Assembly: GCA_022729755.1 (NCBI GenBank)
Contig: DZAZ01000007.1
Location: 1 to 41,650, forward strand
DNA length: 41,650 bases
Direction: 5' to 3'
Source of the DNA: Helicobacter cetorum
GTDB taxonomy: Bacteria > Campylobacterota > Campylobacteria > Campylobacterales > BB28
Part shown: positions 3,877 through 41,650 of the stretch, piece after piece
How the letters are laid out: every line of letters starts with the position of its first letter
Position numbering within the stretch: position 1 is the first letter of the stretch
The notes under the pieces: generated by a model
What the model was told of the DNA's origin: nothing
Seen by the model: only the letters and a program-made list of their open reading frames with translations
Databases searched by the model: none
Translations under genes and position numbers: made by a program

Positions 3877-5028
3877 TTACTCGTCTCTTAATTGCAATCC
3901 ATCTGAATAAGTTTTCACTTGTTTTGTTGCTTTTGTATCTATTTTATTTTTTAAATTATCTTCAACTCTATCCATTTTATTAATAAACTCTTTTTTATTT
4001 TCACTTATATTTGCACTGATTTTTGAAAGTTTAGAGTTTAACTCATTTAATTGATTTGAGAGTGAATTTAATCTTTGATTGATATTTTTATCATCAAATT
4101 TAACCTCTTTAATAACCTCTTTTTGAATTGGAACACTTGGAGTTGGTGAAACTGGCATAATAGTTGTTGTTTTTGGCTCTTGAGCTTTTATTTCATTTAA
4201 TAGATTTTTAAACTCACTAATACTTTGATTTAAGTTTGCAATTTCGCTTTTTATTGCTTTTGCTTCATTTTCAAACATACTCGTATCAACTTTCACTTTT
4301 TCAGCATTTTGTGAAGTTTTAGTCGTTTGTGGTGAAGCTGGTACAATTCGCTCGATTATTTTAGTCGAACTACCATGTTTTGTTAAATCTTCCATAATTG
4401 TAAGCCCAAAATAGATAACAGCCGCTAAAGTTAAAATTATCATAAAAAATATAACTCTAAACAGTGAGTCGGTTGAAGCTTTTTTGCTCAAAATCGCTTT
4501 TTTGCTATCTTTTTCATCTTCAATCAACTCATTTTTAACATCACTATCATTTTTAGCTTTAGAAACATTAGAAATATTAGAGATATTTGAAATGCTTGTT
4601 TTTATCTCATCTAAATTGCCCTTAATATCTTCACTTTGAACTTTTATTTGACTTTTTAATTTTTCAAACTCTAAGTTAATATTTTCATTTACAACTTTGC
4701 CAATATCCCTATCTTTCAAAATTCCCAAACCAACTTTAAGCTCGTCAATTTTACTCTCTAATGGTTTTAAATCTATGCTGCTAGTATTCATATGATTAAT
4801 ACTTACTTCCTTCTTTTTTTCTTCTGTTTTTGAGGCGAAAAAATCATCTTTTGGATTAGTTTCAGAACTTCCACCAAAAAAATCATCTTTTACCTCTTTT
4901 TTAACCTCATTTTCTGCAAATCCAAAATTTAAATCATCATCATTTTCTTTTGGAGTTGAATCTATATTTTTTTTAGGTTCAAATACATCTTTTACCTCAA
5001 TCCCATCTTTATCAAAACTTATATGCAT
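3877..5028 (-). CDS. Coiled-coil protein with a single transmembrane helix, function unknown
   Basis: 383 aa; TM 'LFRVIFFMIILTLAAVIYFGLTIM' with Lys/Glu-rich coiled-coil on both sides. Confidence 0.7.
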   Translation of the reverse strand: MHISFDKDGIEVKDVFEPKKNIDSTPKENDDDLNFGFAENEVKKEVKDDFFGGSSETNPKDDFFASKTEEKKKEVSINHMNTSSIDLKPLESKIDELKVGLGILKDRDIGKVVNENINLEFEKLKSQIKVQSEDIKGNLDEIKTSISNISNISNVSKAKNDSDVKNELIEDEKDSKKAILSKKASTDSLFRVIFFMIILTLAAVIYFGLTIMEDLTKHGSSTKIIERIVPASPQTTKTSQNAEKVKVDTSMFENEAKAIKSEIANLNQSISEFKNLLNEIKAQEPKTTTIMPVSPTPSVPIQKEVIKEVKFDDKNINQRLNSLSNQLNELNSKLSKISANISENKKEFINKMDRVEDNLKNKIDTKATKQVKTYSDGLQLRDE

Positions 5029-5042
5029 ACTAACACCTTTTT

Positions 5043-5834
5043 TTAATAAAAAATACTACTCATATAACCAACTACACGAGTTTTATCGCCACTTGCATCA
5101 GCACTAGTTCTATAATCTAAAATTTTAGATTTTAACTTCTGAATTTTTGCAACTTCAACTATTGCCTTTAGCCCTATTTTTCCACAAGCTTCACATCCAC
5201 TCTCCAAAATATTTAAATCTAGCTTTTCAACTCCATTTAAACAAAAATTATCAAGTTTATTCGCCTCTTTTAAATTATAAAAGTGACTTAAATCAGTGCT
5301 AATTATAATTAAATTATCATTATCATTTAATATAAACTCAATTATTTTGGATAAATCTCTATAATCGATATCTCCATAAACTAACTCAATCACTTTAATA
5401 TCAGCTAAATAATATTTTAAAAATGGCATTTGAGTTTCGCTACTATGCTCTTTGTGCGCTTCAGGATTGAATTTTATCTTATTAAAACTATTTTGCAATT
5501 TTTTTAAATATTGCAAATCTATCTCTAAATTTCCAAAAGGAGTTTCATAAAAATTAAACTCGCTTCCACTAATATAATTTAAATAAACCCTATGACTAGG
5601 ACCAATCACAATTGCTCGTTTTTTTGCTTTTAGTACTCTATAAGCAAAATTTGCACTAAAACCAGAATAAATATATCCAGCGTGTGGGCAAATTATAGCT
5701 TTTGGAGAAAGTTCTAATATTGATTTATCTTTTAGATATGTATCTATTGTGTTATTCCATTTTTTAATCATATCCTCAATTTCAAGTTTAGAATTTGGAT
5801 AAAACATTCCACTATGAACAGCTTTTCTCGTCAT
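5043..5834 (-). CDS. MEMO1 family protein (AmmeMemoRadiSam system protein B-like)
   Basis: 'AVHSGMFYPNSK', 'ICPHAGYIYSGFSANFAYR', 'SSETQMPFLKYYL', 'STDLSHFY'. Confidence 0.88.
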   Translation of the reverse strand: MTRKAVHSGMFYPNSKLEIEDMIKKWNNTIDTYLKDKSILELSPKAIICPHAGYIYSGFSANFAYRVLKAKKRAIVIGPSHRVYLNYISGSEFNFYETPFGNLEIDLQYLKKLQNSFNKIKFNPEAHKEHSSETQMPFLKYYLADIKVIELVYGDIDYRDLSKIIEFILNDNDNLIIISTDLSHFYNLKEANKLDNFCLNGVEKLDLNILESGCEACGKIGLKAIVEVAKIQKLKSKILDYRTSADASGDKTRVVGYMSSIFY

Positions 5835-33258: not shown

Positions 33259-35097
33259 ATGGGAATGAATATACTACTCTTAAATAGAAATCCTATTGTA
33301 TCTAGGCTTACAAAATTAAGCGCTCAAAAATTGAACTTTCAGGTAGATGAGTTTTCAAGTATAGACGAAATAAGTGGTGGTAATTACACTTTTATATTTG
33401 TGGATAATGAAGTTTATTCAAGCGAATTATTAGATAAATTAAAAGGTATTGAATACTCAAAAGTGGGATTTATTTTACCACGAGGAAAAGATAAGCCTGA
33501 TGGATTTGATTTTTATGTAGAAAAGCCTTTTTTACCAACAGAATTAGTAGATATTTTAAAAAATAGTGACTTAAGTGTAAGTAAAAATACTATTATAGAG
33601 GATGAGATGAAATTAGATGATAATGACGGAATATCAGAGTTAGACGATACTTTAGATGATTTTGATAATAATGAGTTGCAAGAAAATGTTGCTTTAGATG
33701 ATGATTTATCTTTAGAAGATAGTGCAAATGAATTGCCAAGTTTAGATGATTCTGATGACTTAAATGTTTTAGATTCTAATGATTTTGGTGATTTAGATAG
33801 CGATTTTGGAGAACCAAACGAGTTAAAAGATGTTGATTTAGGTGAAGATTTAAATATGAGTGAATTAGATGATGATTTGAGTTTAGATGGAACTGAATTA
33901 AGTGATGATTTAACTTTAGAAGAACACAAAGATGAAGAAGATTTATCGCTTGATTCACTAGAAGAAGATTCATTAGAAAGTGATGATTTAGGTGATTTAG
34001 AAGGCTTAGATGATTTGGAAGACCATAAAGATGAAGAAGATTTATCGCTTGATTCACTAGAAGAAGATTCATTAGAAAGTGGTGATTTAGGTGATTTAGA
34101 AGGCTTAGATGATTTGGAAGAACACAAAGATGAAGAAGATTTATCGCTTGATTCACTAGAAGAAGATTCATTAGAAAGTGATGATTTAGGCGATTTAGAA
34201 GGCTTAGATGATTTGGAAGAACACAAAGACGAAGAAGATTTATCGCTTGATTCACTAGAAGAAGATTCATTAGGAAATGATGATTTAAGCTTAGAAGAAC
34301 CAAGTGATTTAGGCGATTTGGAAGAAGATTCGATTGAAGATAATTCGTCGTTAAATGATTTGGAAGATTTAAAAACTGAAGATTTAGAATTAGAATCAAG
34401 TGAAGAATTAATTGAAGATGAAGAGATTGAAGATGTGGATTTAGAAGCAAAAGGTGTACCTGAATTAGGGGAAGATTTAAACTTAGAAGAAGATATAAGT
34501 CTTGATGAGCATTTAGAAGATTTAAGCGAAATAGAAGATGATGTTATAGAATCTAAAAGTGATGGCAGTGAAAATGGAAATATTGCAGCAGCGATTATGG
34601 GCGATATTCACGAAGAACTTACAGATATTGAAGATACAAATATAGAAGATATAGATTTAGATAATTTTGGTTCAGACATTTTAGAAGATGATAAAGTAGA
34701 TGAAAAAGTTGAAATTAAAGAAGAAGAAATGCAAGAAGATGAACTATCTGAATTAAATGAAAGAGGCATAAAAGAGGCTTTAGGTGAGGAAGTTCCCGAA
34801 GAAGAAGAGCTTGTTGCACCATCTAAAGATGATAATAATTTAGAGGATGTTGCAGCAATAACAGCAGGTGCAATGGCAGTTGGTGGAGTTGCTATGGCAA
34901 GTCAATCTTTCAAAGAAGATGAGATAAAACCTATTCAAACTACTCAAAATGAAAATATGCAAACTCCTGTTGAAACAATTGCAAATACCAATGCTATGGC
35001 TAGTGTTATGAAAAGCTTGAATATTGAGGCATTACGGGAACTTTTAGCTGGAGCTGAAGTAAATATTAAGATAAATTTTCCAAAAAAAGATAGTTGA
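33259..35097 (+). CDS. Highly acidic repeat protein upstream of gmk
   Basis: 612 aa, extremely Asp/Glu/Leu/Ser-rich; same neighbourhood as the 'highly acidic protein' beside gmk/tatA/argS in Campylobacter. Confidence 0.8.
   Translation: MGMNILLLNRNPIVSRLTKLSAQKLNFQVDEFSSIDEISGGNYTFIFVDNEVYSSELLDKLKGIEYSKVGFILPRGKDKPDGFDFYVEKPFLPTELVDILKNSDLSVSKNTIIEDEMKLDDNDGISELDDTLDDFDNNELQENVALDDDLSLEDSANELPSLDDSDDLNVLDSNDFGDLDSDFGEPNELKDVDLGEDLNMSELDDDLSLDGTELSDDLTLEEHKDEEDLSLDSLEEDSLESDDLGDLEGLDDLEDHKDEEDLSLDSLEEDSLESGDLGDLEGLDDLEEHKDEEDLSLDSLEEDSLESDDLGDLEGLDDLEEHKDEEDLSLDSLEEDSLGNDDLSLEEPSDLGDLEEDSIEDNSSLNDLEDLKTEDLELESSEELIEDEEIEDVDLEAKGVPELGEDLNLEEDISLDEHLEDLSEIEDDVIESKSDGSENGNIAAAIMGDIHEELTDIEDTNIEDIDLDNFGSDILEDDKVDEKVEIKEEEMQEDELSELNERGIKEALGEEVPEEEELVAPSKDDNNLEDVAAITAGAMAVGGVAMASQSFKEDEIKPIQTTQNENMQTPVETIANTNAMASVMKSLNIEALRELLAGAEVNIKINFPKKDS
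33925..34275. repeat. Tandem 99-bp (33-aa) coding repeat, three full copies and a partial fourth
   Basis: HKDEEDLSLDSLEEDSLES(D/G)DLGDLEGLDDLE(E/D) copies start at 33925, 34024, 34123, 34222 (exact 99-bp spacing). Confidence 0.93.
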
Positions 35098-37710: not shown

Positions 37711-40700
37711 ATGGGTAAGTTTAAATTCATAAGTTTAGTGGCTTCTTCGCTTTTAGTTAATTCGTTAATGGCGGTTGAGACACAAACAATGTTTTTAGAG
37801 AGTGGTTGGAATTTAAAAGGTTCAAAATTAAATAGTGCGAAAGTAAATGGCGATAATATTACAAATACATTAAAATATAATGCAAGTGGTTGGTCTCAGG
37901 ATAAGGGCGATGGAACACTATCTTTAAATGCTGGAGAAGGTTTTTGGATTAAAGCTACAAAAGAGAGTGCAATATTTTTAAAAGGTGATATTTCAAGTGA
38001 AAGTGTTAAATTTGATAAAGCTGGATGGCATTTAGCAACTCCAATAGACGGAAGTTTAAGTTTATCTACACTGAATAGCGAAAATTTATCTTCAATTTGG
38101 ACTTACAAAGCTGGTCAATGGCTTGATAAAGATAAGATGTCAAAAGCAAACATCACAAAAATAGAAGTTGGTGATGGATTTTGGGTAAAAACTTCAAAAG
38201 ATAATTTAACAATAGATACTTTAAGTGCAACTACAACAGCAGTAGCTTCTGGTTCAATTGATTTAAGTTCTATAATTAATCCTGTAACTGGCGAAGCAAT
38301 GGGTGGGCGAAGCTTAAGGGATGAAGTTGTTAATCCACTAAATGGACAAGTTATTCCAGATGAGGCTAGTGTTCAAGTATACGAAGCTGACGATACTAGT
38401 TTTTCAAAACCACTACTTAAAAAATCTGTTACTATTAATCCTTTGACGGGTGAGTATGTGATTGAAAAAGATAATTTAAATGATAGTATCAGCAATGATG
38501 AAGTTGTTAATCCTTTAACTGGCAAAGTTATCAGGGTTATAGCTAAGAAAAATGATAAAAATTATGAATTATCGGCACTTGCAACAGATTCAAAAAGAGT
38601 TGATGTAAATCCAATTACAACTACTATTAGAACTCAAATTATCGACACAATCAAAACAATGTTTGGTGAAGAGTTTGTTAAAGAGATGAAGGAAAATAGT
38701 TCAATTATGAGCGCTATTAACTCTTTGGCTAGTACTTTAGCAACTAAAGTTGCTCAAGATATCAAAGATAGCAAACTCTCTCTTAGACAAACAGATTTTG
38801 AAACAGATAAAACTCCTGATAAAATCATAAATCCTTTAACTGGTGAAGAGGTAGTTGCAAAAGCTGAAAAAGAGGAGAAATTAAAAACTCAATTAAAAGA
38901 TTCTTCATCAAGTACAGATGTTGCACAATTTGAAAATAAAGTTAGTTATGCGAAAAAAGAGAAAATCGATACTACAAATGTGGATTTAACTAAGAGTGGG
39001 ACAAATGTAGATTTCGCTATTTTAGAGTATGATATTATTTCAACTTTTGCAAAAATGAATTTAGCAGTACACGATGGTAATGGAAGATTAGTTCTATTTT
39101 TACCAGTACCATCTGAACATTTTAATAAATTACCTGGAGAAAAATTTAGCAAAAAAGTTAAAAAAGATGATGGTAGTGAATTTGTGGTGGGAAATGACCC
39201 TGCACTTAGAGTAATCGATTTAGAAAAAAATCTTAAAAATGCAAATGGTTCTGAAATATGGGCAAAAGATTTAGTTAATACTTTACTTTATAATCCGATT
39301 GTACCTTATGAAGTGATTAAAACTTTAGTTAAAAAAGATATGCACACTACAAAACTTACGAGCTTGGGTGAGTTTTTATTAACTCAAAAAGACCCATATG
39401 GTGAGGCACTTGTTCAAATTAATCCAATGGAGCCTTTAATAAAAAATAAAGTAACACTCTCTTCAAATCCTGATGAGTCTGTAAAACGAATTATTAAATC
39501 TTATATGGAGCCAATTGTTGCCTCAAACTTACTTTGGATGCAATATGATTTATTATTTAATGCACTTGATACAAAAAGTACTATAGATTTTATGAAACTT
39601 TTTGGAATTTCAAAAAGTGATAATGTTGGTAATTTTATTAATAGATTTCAAGACTCTAAAGAGTTTCGTTCTTTCTTAAAAGATATCGGTGTTCCGTTAA
39701 TTACGGCTATTCCTCCATTTGCAAAAGATGAAAATGCAATTCAGTTAAAAGATGGTTATCAAATTAATGAAAACTCAACAATAGTTCCAAAAACTGGTAT
39801 TGCACTTACAAATTTAGTTCTTTCTACATCTGGACTTGCTGAAATTATTATAACTAAGAAAAAAATCTCTGAAATTATAGGAGAAGAGTTTTTACCTGAA
39901 AATGTAAAAGATTTAGCTGATAAAGAGATTTGGTGGGCTGTTGATAAAAAACAAATGAATGAGATGGATGCTAGAGATGTAGATGAAATTGACACAATTA
40001 GTTGGATGAAAGATTTTATTTTAGCACTATCAACTAAACTTAGTGGAGAGAGTATCAATGCTGAAACAAGATTTGCAAAAATTATAAGCGATGTTAATAA
40101 TTATGTAAAAGCATTTGAAGAAAAAGTGTTCGAGAGAGAATATAATGTATTTGAAGAACAATTAGCAAAAGAAGCAAAGGTTGTGAATAGTGTTATCAAA
40201 TTCCAAGTTGTAGATTTTGAAAATAATCCAATTGAAGCTGTTTCACAAATTACATTTATTCCTCACATTGAAAATAAAAAAACAGGTGAAATAATTGCAT
40301 TACAAGATAAATCAAAAGCAATGTCTCCAGTTGATAGTGAAGCTAGATTTAAAGATACGATGATATTAACTCCATCAGAAATGTTTGTAAATGAAAATGG
40401 GGATGTTGATGAAAATGGAAAATGGAGATATTTAACAGATTACAATGTAAAACTTACCCTAAGTGATGGTAGTGAATTTTTCTTAGATTATCCAATTGCA
40501 CTATTTCCTATCGAGTATAATAATTTAAATTTCATCTATGTTAATACTAACTTTGGTGCTGAAGAGTTCAATACTGGAATGGATAGTTTTAGCCAACAAG
40601 TGCTACATAATGGCGATAAAGTATATTATCCATTACTAGATAGAGATTTAGCAGTTTATTCTGAATTTAAATTCATTGCAAGAGAAGGTATAAGATTTGG

Positions 40701-41650
40701 AGTTTTGGCTAAAGATTGGGAAGAACAAGATAAAGTTTGGAGTTCATCAACAATTCAAAAACCAAAAGAGAGTGAGTTAATACATCAGTTTGATATAGGT
40801 AATGGAATAAATGAGGGTGCATTAATTATGATTGATGTACAACCAAAAAATCAAATGGCAAGACAAATTAGTGGCAAAAATACACAACTTTTAATGACTA
40901 TTGATTATATTGATAGAGAAAATAAACAAGTTAGTATATATATTGAACCTATGATTGTCGATAAGGTTGAAAATAAAGTTCCAACTTGTTTCGCACAAGA
41001 AAAAGAGATTACATTACCAATGAGACTTGATGGAACATATCCATATCCTGGAGACCCTGATTATCCAAAAGAGTGTATGGGTGAAGTTAACAAATTTGTA
41101 CCAACTGATTGTAAAGGAAAAGAGTTTCCATTTGATGAAGCAGCAAATAAATACTATTTACCAAATGAAGAGAATAAAAACACTATCTTTGTTGGATATG
41201 ATTTAACTTGTATGACAGATAACAATTATTTTGGTGATTTTCAAGATAAAATCAAAGACAAGTGCGACTTTAATGGTGATGGCAATGTTGATGAGACTGA
41301 AAAACAAAAATGTAGCAATATAATGGATAATACAACTTCAAATATGCCTATTGACAAATGCGATACTAATAAAGATGGCAAAGTTGATGATGTTGAAACA
41401 AAACAGTGTGCTAATATGACGGGTACAACAACTACTACAAACGATTTTATCACTAAATGCGATACTAATAAAGATGGTTTTGTTGATGAAACTGAAAAAC
41501 AACAGTGTGCTAATATGGTGAGTTCAACTACTCAAGTATTTGATAAATGCGATACTAATAAAGATGGCAAAGTTGATGAAACTGAAAAACAACAATGTGC
41601 TAATATGGTGAGTTCAACTACTCAAGTATTTGATAAATGCGATACTAATA
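37711..41650 (+). CDS. Large secreted protein, 3'-truncated by window end: signal peptide, GW/GFW repeats, NPLTG motifs, C-terminal Cys-flanked EF-hand array
   Basis: ATG at 37711 after a GGGAG ribosome-binding site; I translated line by line and found no in-frame stop to 41650 (at least 1313 codons). Signal peptide MGKFKFISLVASSLLVNSLMA. Not in the ORF track because it has no stop in the window. Confidence 0.9.
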   Translation, partial: MGKFKFISLVASSLLVNSLMAVETQTMFLESGWNLKGSKLNSAKVNGDNITNTLKYNASGWSQDKGDGTLSLNAGEGFWIKATKESAIFLKGDISSESVKFDKAGWHLATPIDGSLSLSTLNSENLSSIWTYKAGQWLDKDKMSKANITKIEVGDGFWVKTSKDNLTIDTLSATTTAVASGSIDLSSIINPVTGEAMGGRSLRDEVVNPLNGQVIPDEASVQVYEADDTSFSKPLLKKSVTINPLTGEYVIEKDNLNDSISNDEVVNPLTGKVIRVIAKKNDKNYELSALATDSKRVDVNPITTTIRTQIIDTIKTMFGEEFVKEMKENSSIMSAINSLASTLATKVAQDIKDSKLSLRQTDFETDKTPDKIINPLTGEEVVAKAEKEEKLKTQLKDSSSSTDVAQFENKVSYAKKEKIDTTNVDLTKSGTNVDFAILEYDIISTFAKMNLAVHDGNGRLVLFLPVPSEHFNKLPGEKFSKKVKKDDGSEFVVGNDPALRVIDLEKNLKNANGSEIWAKDLVNTLLYNPIVPYEVIKTLVKKDMHTTKLTSLGEFLLTQKDPYGEALVQINPMEPLIKNKVTLSSNPDESVKRIIKSYMEPIVASNLLWMQYDLLFNALDTKSTIDFMKLFGISKSDNVGNFINRFQDSKEFRSFLKDIGVPLITAIPPFAKDENAIQLKDGYQINENSTIVPKTGIALTNLVLSTSGLAEIIITKKKISEIIGEEFLPENVKDLADKEIWWAVDKKQMNEMDARDVDEIDTISWMKDFILALSTKLSGESINAETRFAKIISDVNNYVKAFEEKVFEREYNVFEEQLAKEAKVVNSVIKFQVVDFENNPIEAVSQITFIPHIENKKTGEIIALQDKSKAMSPVDSEARFKDTMILTPSEMFVNENGDVDENGKWRYLTDYNVKLTLSDGSEFFLDYPIALFPIEYNNLNFIYVNTNFGAEEFNTGMDSFSQQVLHNGDKVYYPLLDRDLAVYSEFKFIAREGIRFGVLAKDWEEQDKVWSSSTIQKPKESELIHQFDIGNGINEGALIMIDVQPKNQMARQISGKNTQLLMTIDYIDRENKQVSIYIEPMIVDKVENKVPTCFAQEKEITLPMRLDGTYPYPGDPDYPKECMGEVNKFVPTDCKGKEFPFDEAANKYYLPNEENKNTIFVGYDLTCMTDNNYFGDFQDKIKDKCDFNGDGNVDETEKQKCSNIMDNTTSNMPIDKCDTNKDGKVDDVETKQCANMTGTTTTTNDFITKCDTNKDGFVDETEKQQCANMVSSTTQVFDKCDTNKDGKVDETEKQQCANMVSSTTQVFDKCDTN
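38278..38850 (+). repeat. Dispersed NP(L/V)(T/N)G(E/K/Q) peptide motif, five copies
   Basis: NPVTGE (38278), NPLNGQ (38332), NPLTGE (38437), NPLTGK (38509), NPLTGE (38830). Confidence 0.8.
41263..41650 (+). repeat. Tandem Cys-flanked EF-hand/dockerin-like repeat array, continues past window end
   Basis: C-D-T-N-K-D-G-K-V-D-E-T-E-K-Q-Q-C units with first Cys codons at 41263, 41359, 41458, 41548, 41638 (spacing 96, 99, 90, 90 bp). Confidence 0.92.

Follow-up and report, generated by a model that had tools for sequence, protein, structure and literature searches.

The closest described counterpart of the repeat analysed here is found in the EC domain of SPARC/BM-40 (PF10591, SPARC_Ca_bdg), which is extracellular, has the architecture C-[12-residue EF loop]-x3-C in one of its EF-hands, and for which the disulfide is documented: in insect SPARC, a disulfide linking Cys 258 to Cys 274, 16 residues apart, reportedly stabilises EF-hand II (PMC9531499), and a disulfide bridge in EF-hand 2 has likewise been described for Drosophila SPARC (PMC12002606). 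Among other systems, dockerin type I (PF00404) carries Ca2+ loops in extracellular bacterial proteins, and thrombospondin type 3 repeats (TSP3; PF02412) combine arrays of DxDxDG sites with disulfides. The Excalibur domain (PF05901) is an extracellular bacterial EF-like loop with cysteines, in which the Cys lies inside the loop motif itself (DxDxDGxxCE). Rigden et al. catalogued the Dx[DN]xDG loop in 16 structural contexts (PMC3123361), in a text from which the words disulphide, disulfide, and cysteine are all absent, and our own literature search, with subscription journals mostly outside its reach, returned no paper describing bacterial Cys-bracketed EF arrays.

The array and the protein that carries it

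The window (i.e., the whole stretch of 41,650 bases analysed here) comprises bases 1–41,650 of a 50,523-base contig from a 2.1 Mb genome assembly (G000; 132 contigs, 88% complete). A gene for an exported protein begins at 37711 (forward strand, on which all features of this gene given below lie), and its reading frame is still open at the window end (37711–41650, 1313 residues in the window); past a run of 100 Ns, it continues to a stop codon at position 4360 of locus L003. Translation and alignment with an orthologue indicate a Sec-type signal peptide (MGKFKFISLVASSLLVNSLMA, 37711–37773) without a lipobox, the cleavage site being placed by eye. The protein body (38218–40980) is free of cysteine and belongs to no Pfam family, giving only weak matches below the cut-offs; residues 1–1092 contain not a single Cys, and the cysteines of the array occur as pairs. 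A PDB sequence search found no relative of the body, its structural model (mean pLDDT 47, from a three-sequence alignment) is too poor for interpretation, and a PHROGs match (phrog_17512, E 0.008, function unknown) is uninformative.

As translated from ORF 37711–41650, the array region contains four complete copies of a unit with the architecture C-[12-residue EF loop]-x3-C, namely CDFNGDGNVDETEKQKC (unit 1, 41263–41313), CDTNKDGKVDDVETKQC (unit 2, 41359–41409), CDTNKDGFVDETEKQQC (unit 3, 41458–41508), and CDTNKDGKVDETEKQQC (unit 4, 41548–41598). Successive units are 96, 99, and 90 bp apart (i.e., 32, 33, and 30 residues), and all four complete loops carry the canonical EF positions (D1, N3, D5, G6, a hydrophobic residue at 8, D9, and E12). 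A fifth unit begins at 41638–41650 (CDTN) and is broken by a scaffold gap at the window end. The first-pass annotation, which was made from the sequence of the window alone, had described tandem EF-hand-type Ca2+ loops with one Cys directly before and another three residues after each loop, and this description is borne out; its statement that KQQ precedes the second Cys in each unit applies only to units 3 and 4, the others having KQK or TKQ.

The gap (L003 4052–4151) lies within the array. Beyond it, the sequence picks up in exact register with the remainder of a unit, followed by one further unit (CDTNKDGKVDDVERQQC), a tail (TDGTSTTSMGGGMMK), and the stop codon, from which we infer that the array forms the C-terminus of the protein and has at least six units; because a run of 100 Ns is the default scaffold gap and arbitrary in length, six is a minimum count. 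When its two flanks are read together, the gap-flanking unit differs from unit 4 at 0 of 51 motif bases, and a comparison of the 90-bp repeats of units 3 and 4 gives 5 differences in 90 bases, in line with the roughly five differences between the last copies counted in the first-pass annotation. Its view of a young, expanded array is also supported, and the guess that the array would prove longer than the window turned out to be right. The near-identical copies probably caused the assembly break, and copies would be gained or lost when the 90-bp repeat slips or recombines.

Two further Cys-bracketed modules lie ahead of the EF array: a C-x28-C module (CFAQEKEITLPMRLDGTYPYPGDPDYPKEC, 40987–41076), related to modules that are repeated in the orthologue from a congener (G001), and a second module (CKGKEFPFDEAANKYYLPNEENKNTIFVGYDLTC, 41110–41211) that is conserved in G001. 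The pattern C..EI.L..R.DG.YP.PGDPDYP.EC, together with a variant, accounts for one to two copies in this part of the window (40987–41211) and for more copies in the G001 orthologue (L005, about 4747–5271); it has no Pfam match. Elsewhere in the protein, a nonapeptide-like motif, NP[LV][TN]G[EQK] (e.g., VVNPLTGKV), occurs in five dispersed copies (window 38278, 38332, 38437, 38509, and 38830), none of them present at the aligned positions of the G001 orthologue; their codons differ, so they are not recent DNA copies.

Occurrence in the phylum and beyond

The sequence suggests that the phylum is Campylobacterota. In a 398-genome sample of it, a degenerate DNA pattern of the unit has five matches in G000, all in the array gene, and three in G001, which again share a single gene; the remaining 396 genomes have no match. 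The reversed (backwards) control pattern has no match, and the unit matches are far above chance; an EF-loop pattern without the cysteines finds only the same five places across the whole G000 genome. The G001 gene is the orthologue of the array gene (49% protein identity) and is found at the same position, after gmk and argS (guanylate kinase and ArgS being recognised by eye). Both Cys are kept in all three loops of the orthologue, the linkers have changed, and the spacing is 39 residues. Directly upstream of gmk and argS in the window, ORF 33259–35097 contains a 99-bp tandem repeat (33915–34287, 3.8 copies, 95% matches) whose product is an acidic, Asp/Glu/Leu-rich stretch.

Relatives of the protein body occur in only 4 of the 400 genomes in a sample of the order, the more distant ones being in G055 and, in part, in G019, with none elsewhere in that sample. 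The G019 relative is a mere fragment at a contig end. The G055 relative (L006), the most distant of them, has no EF array and ends in a different terminal repeat; it has a lipobox (TGCGGGSS) and its C-terminus is (GDPS)n, so that, within this family, one kind of short repeat is exchanged for another at the C-terminus. MMEGERPEGK repeats form the tail of a G001 relative.

Searching other genomes for the pattern, a check that the first-pass annotation had put forward, found the unit in many phyla. The scan covered 85,462 species, with one genome per species and with Asp fixed at loop position 5, and found the unit in at least 120 stretches; the matches listed span Proteobacteria, Desulfobacterota, Myxococcota, Actinobacteria, Patescibacteria, Gemmatimonadetes, archaea, and others, and among them most are single units and some are TSP3-like (CDxDxDGDLxxNExDNCP). 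Long arrays were found in Beggiatoa sp. SZUA-411 (L067, 1013 onwards), where 53 of 54 loops have both Cys, in Thioploca sp. (L084, 34–738; 13 of 13 loops), and in a Gemmatimonadetes contig (L051; 10 of 18 loops), and arrays of four to six loops were found in L129, L146, and L110. The initial claim of novelty is reduced to this extent, as units with the same spacing, single or arrayed, occur in many bacterial and archaeal phyla. Many of the Beggiatoa and Thioploca units are 18 residues apart, leaving one residue between the Cys of successive units (C-x-C). Judged by this spacing, the gammaproteobacterial arrays have no room for EF helices, so a helix-loop-helix fold may not be general, and the L067 and L084 arrays could possibly form a helix-free disulfide-calcium rod.

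According to a crude, home-made signal-peptide score, 75 of 103 unit-bearing proteins among the matches listed have signal-peptide-like N-termini, whereas among the remaining 1,014 ORFs at these loci 177 do (odds ratio 12.7). This shows that the unit is usually extracellular; since the comparison group consists of these other ORFs and not of Cys-free EF-hands, the enrichment does not show the cysteines to be its cause.

Disulfides, calcium, and rival readings

We consider it fairly probable that the array is an extracellular C-terminal tail of tandem EF-hand Ca2+ sites with one intra-unit disulfide each, as in SPARC EF-hand 2. Each 30- to 33-residue unit would consist of the canonical 12-residue loop with a short helix on either side, and its single disulfide would join the Cys just before loop position 1 to the Cys at the fourth residue past loop position 12. 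Such a staple would hold the loop ends together, allowing each site to fold and to bind extracellular Ca2+ without a partner EF-hand, with one Ca2+ per unit bound outside the cytoplasm. Because the ligands are canonical in every loop, Ca2+ binding is strongly predicted, and a disulfide in each unit is likely, given the spacing, the joint conservation of the two Cys, and export. The helix-loop-helix fold is a low-confidence prediction from a model of the array with a helix on both sides of every loop (mean pLDDT 52), whose fold matches (EF-hand proteins on top, best E 0.14) were not used as evidence. A structural or adhesive role of the tail outside the cell is weakly suggested. The stalk on the cell surface envisaged in the first-pass annotation is unsupported: the array is a C-terminal tail in which no surface anchor was identified, and there is no sign that it is rigid.

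Alternatively, the array cysteines could join neighbouring units or separate molecules, as a TSP3-like disulfide chain or a cross-linked surface layer, with no staple within each loop. Some of the pattern-matched units elsewhere are indeed TSP3-like, and the tight C-x-C junctions in L067 and L084 would permit pairing between neighbouring Cys; the units in the window, however, do not show the TSP3 signature, and the Pfam search gave no match to PF02412, on which grounds membership of the thrombospondin type 3 family was rejected. The linkers, moreover, vary (30, 32, and 33 residues, and 39 in G001) while C-x15-C stays constant, which fits pairing within the unit, and SPARC, with identical spacing, has its disulfide within the loop. 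We therefore regard pairing between units as improbable.

A second alternative has the cysteines in reduced form within the cell envelope, binding metal or idle, with the tail acting as an EF-hand Ca2+ buffer of the ordinary kind. In its favour, and as the weak point of the stapled reading, DsbB, VKOR, DsbA, and Thioredoxin_4 have no match in the G000 genome, and DsbB is missing from 9 of the 15 genomes checked in the order, so that other oxidases may serve or the array cysteines may stay reduced. The G000 genome is incomplete (88%), however, and the congener G001 (99% complete), itself without DsbB and VKOR, has one thioredoxin-fold CPFC protein. The strict retention of the two Cys together in arrays from different phyla and the strong enrichment of the unit in exported proteins argue for a structural disulfide, and we judge the reduced state to be unlikely.

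Finally, the possibility that the tail is a recently inserted, fast-varying, low-constraint repeat without a specific job would agree with the near-identity of the last 90-bp copies and with the different short repeats in the family's paralogous tails ((GDPS)n in G055, MMEGERPEGK in G001), but is very unlikely, as every G000 and G001 unit retains its full set of Ca2+ ligands and its two Cys while the linkers have changed and overall identity is 49%.

Comparison with known calcium-binding families

The favoured reading, EF-hand sites each closed by its own disulfide, places the array next to several known families. All four complete loops have the EF-hand length of 12 residues, with ligands at positions 1, 3, 5, 9, and 12, Gly at 6, and a hydrophobic residue at 8, and a PDB search with a profile built from the array and its relatives gives matches to calmodulin-type chains. 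The best Pfam EF-hand score of the array protein is below the curated cut-off (EF-hand_5, 22.0 versus 25.9); the Thioploca and Beggiatoa arrays score above the EF-hand cut-off, and Pfam assigns L067, L084, and L146 to EF-hand only. Along with L051, L129, and L110, these proteins share tandem Cys-bracketed EF units with the array described here, and L084 and L146 have a signal-like N-terminal stretch and L129 a lipobox-like one. They are otherwise unrelated to the array protein, and L067 and L084 differ further in having 13 to 54 units, often at a spacing of 18–25 residues.

Dockerin type I membership was rejected (PF00404, 20.4 bits versus a cut-off of 22.9), and the array differs from dockerin in that every loop is bracketed by Cys and that there are six or more loops. 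RTX (PF00353), a glycine-rich nonapeptide repeat as opposed to the 30- to 33-residue repeat here, gives no match and was likewise rejected. The pairing of loop and cysteines thus differs from both dockerin and RTX, as the first-pass annotation had stated, but the same pairing is known from SPARC/BM-40. The Excalibur domain is set apart by the position of its Cys, and the array protein has no PF05901 match. The XopAW calcium-binding effector (NF041410) scores 43.4 bits (cut-off 120), the match being confined to the EF loops, and was rejected as well.

We put forward, as a tentative and rather doubtful generalisation, that disulfide-stapled single Ca2+ loops form a widespread, unnamed class of bacterial extracellular repeats in which the disulfide replaces the EF helices and the partner hand, so that loops could follow one another at any spacing from 18 residues upwards and in arrays exceeding 50 units. 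Such a general class would be more interesting than a single array gene. If the staple makes each loop independent, the unit would be a minimal, repeatable extracellular Ca2+ module, unnamed in the libraries searched, and arrays of it could serve as envelope Ca2+ stores, as Ca2+-stiffened spacers, or as metal-binding repeats in biotechnology.

The nearest match is SPARC/BM-40, whose EF-hand 2 (CDLDNDKYIALDEWAGC) has a C-x15-C bracketing of the EF loop identical in spacing to that of the array units (PDB: 1sra, 1bmo, 1nub, and 2v53; the PDB chains matched the query sequence letter for letter). On the array protein, PF10591 scores 15.0 bits, below the cut-off of 22, and SPARC-family membership was rejected; in SPARC, a single stapled hand is packed against the first EF-hand and a follistatin domain, whereas the hands of the array are in tandem. 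The array may work like SPARC EF-hand 2 but is not a member of the SPARC family. By its sequence, it represents EF-hands with a probable SPARC-type staple, in tandem in a bacterium, an under-described variant and not a new type, which would correct the notion that stapled EF loops of the SPARC type are confined to animals.
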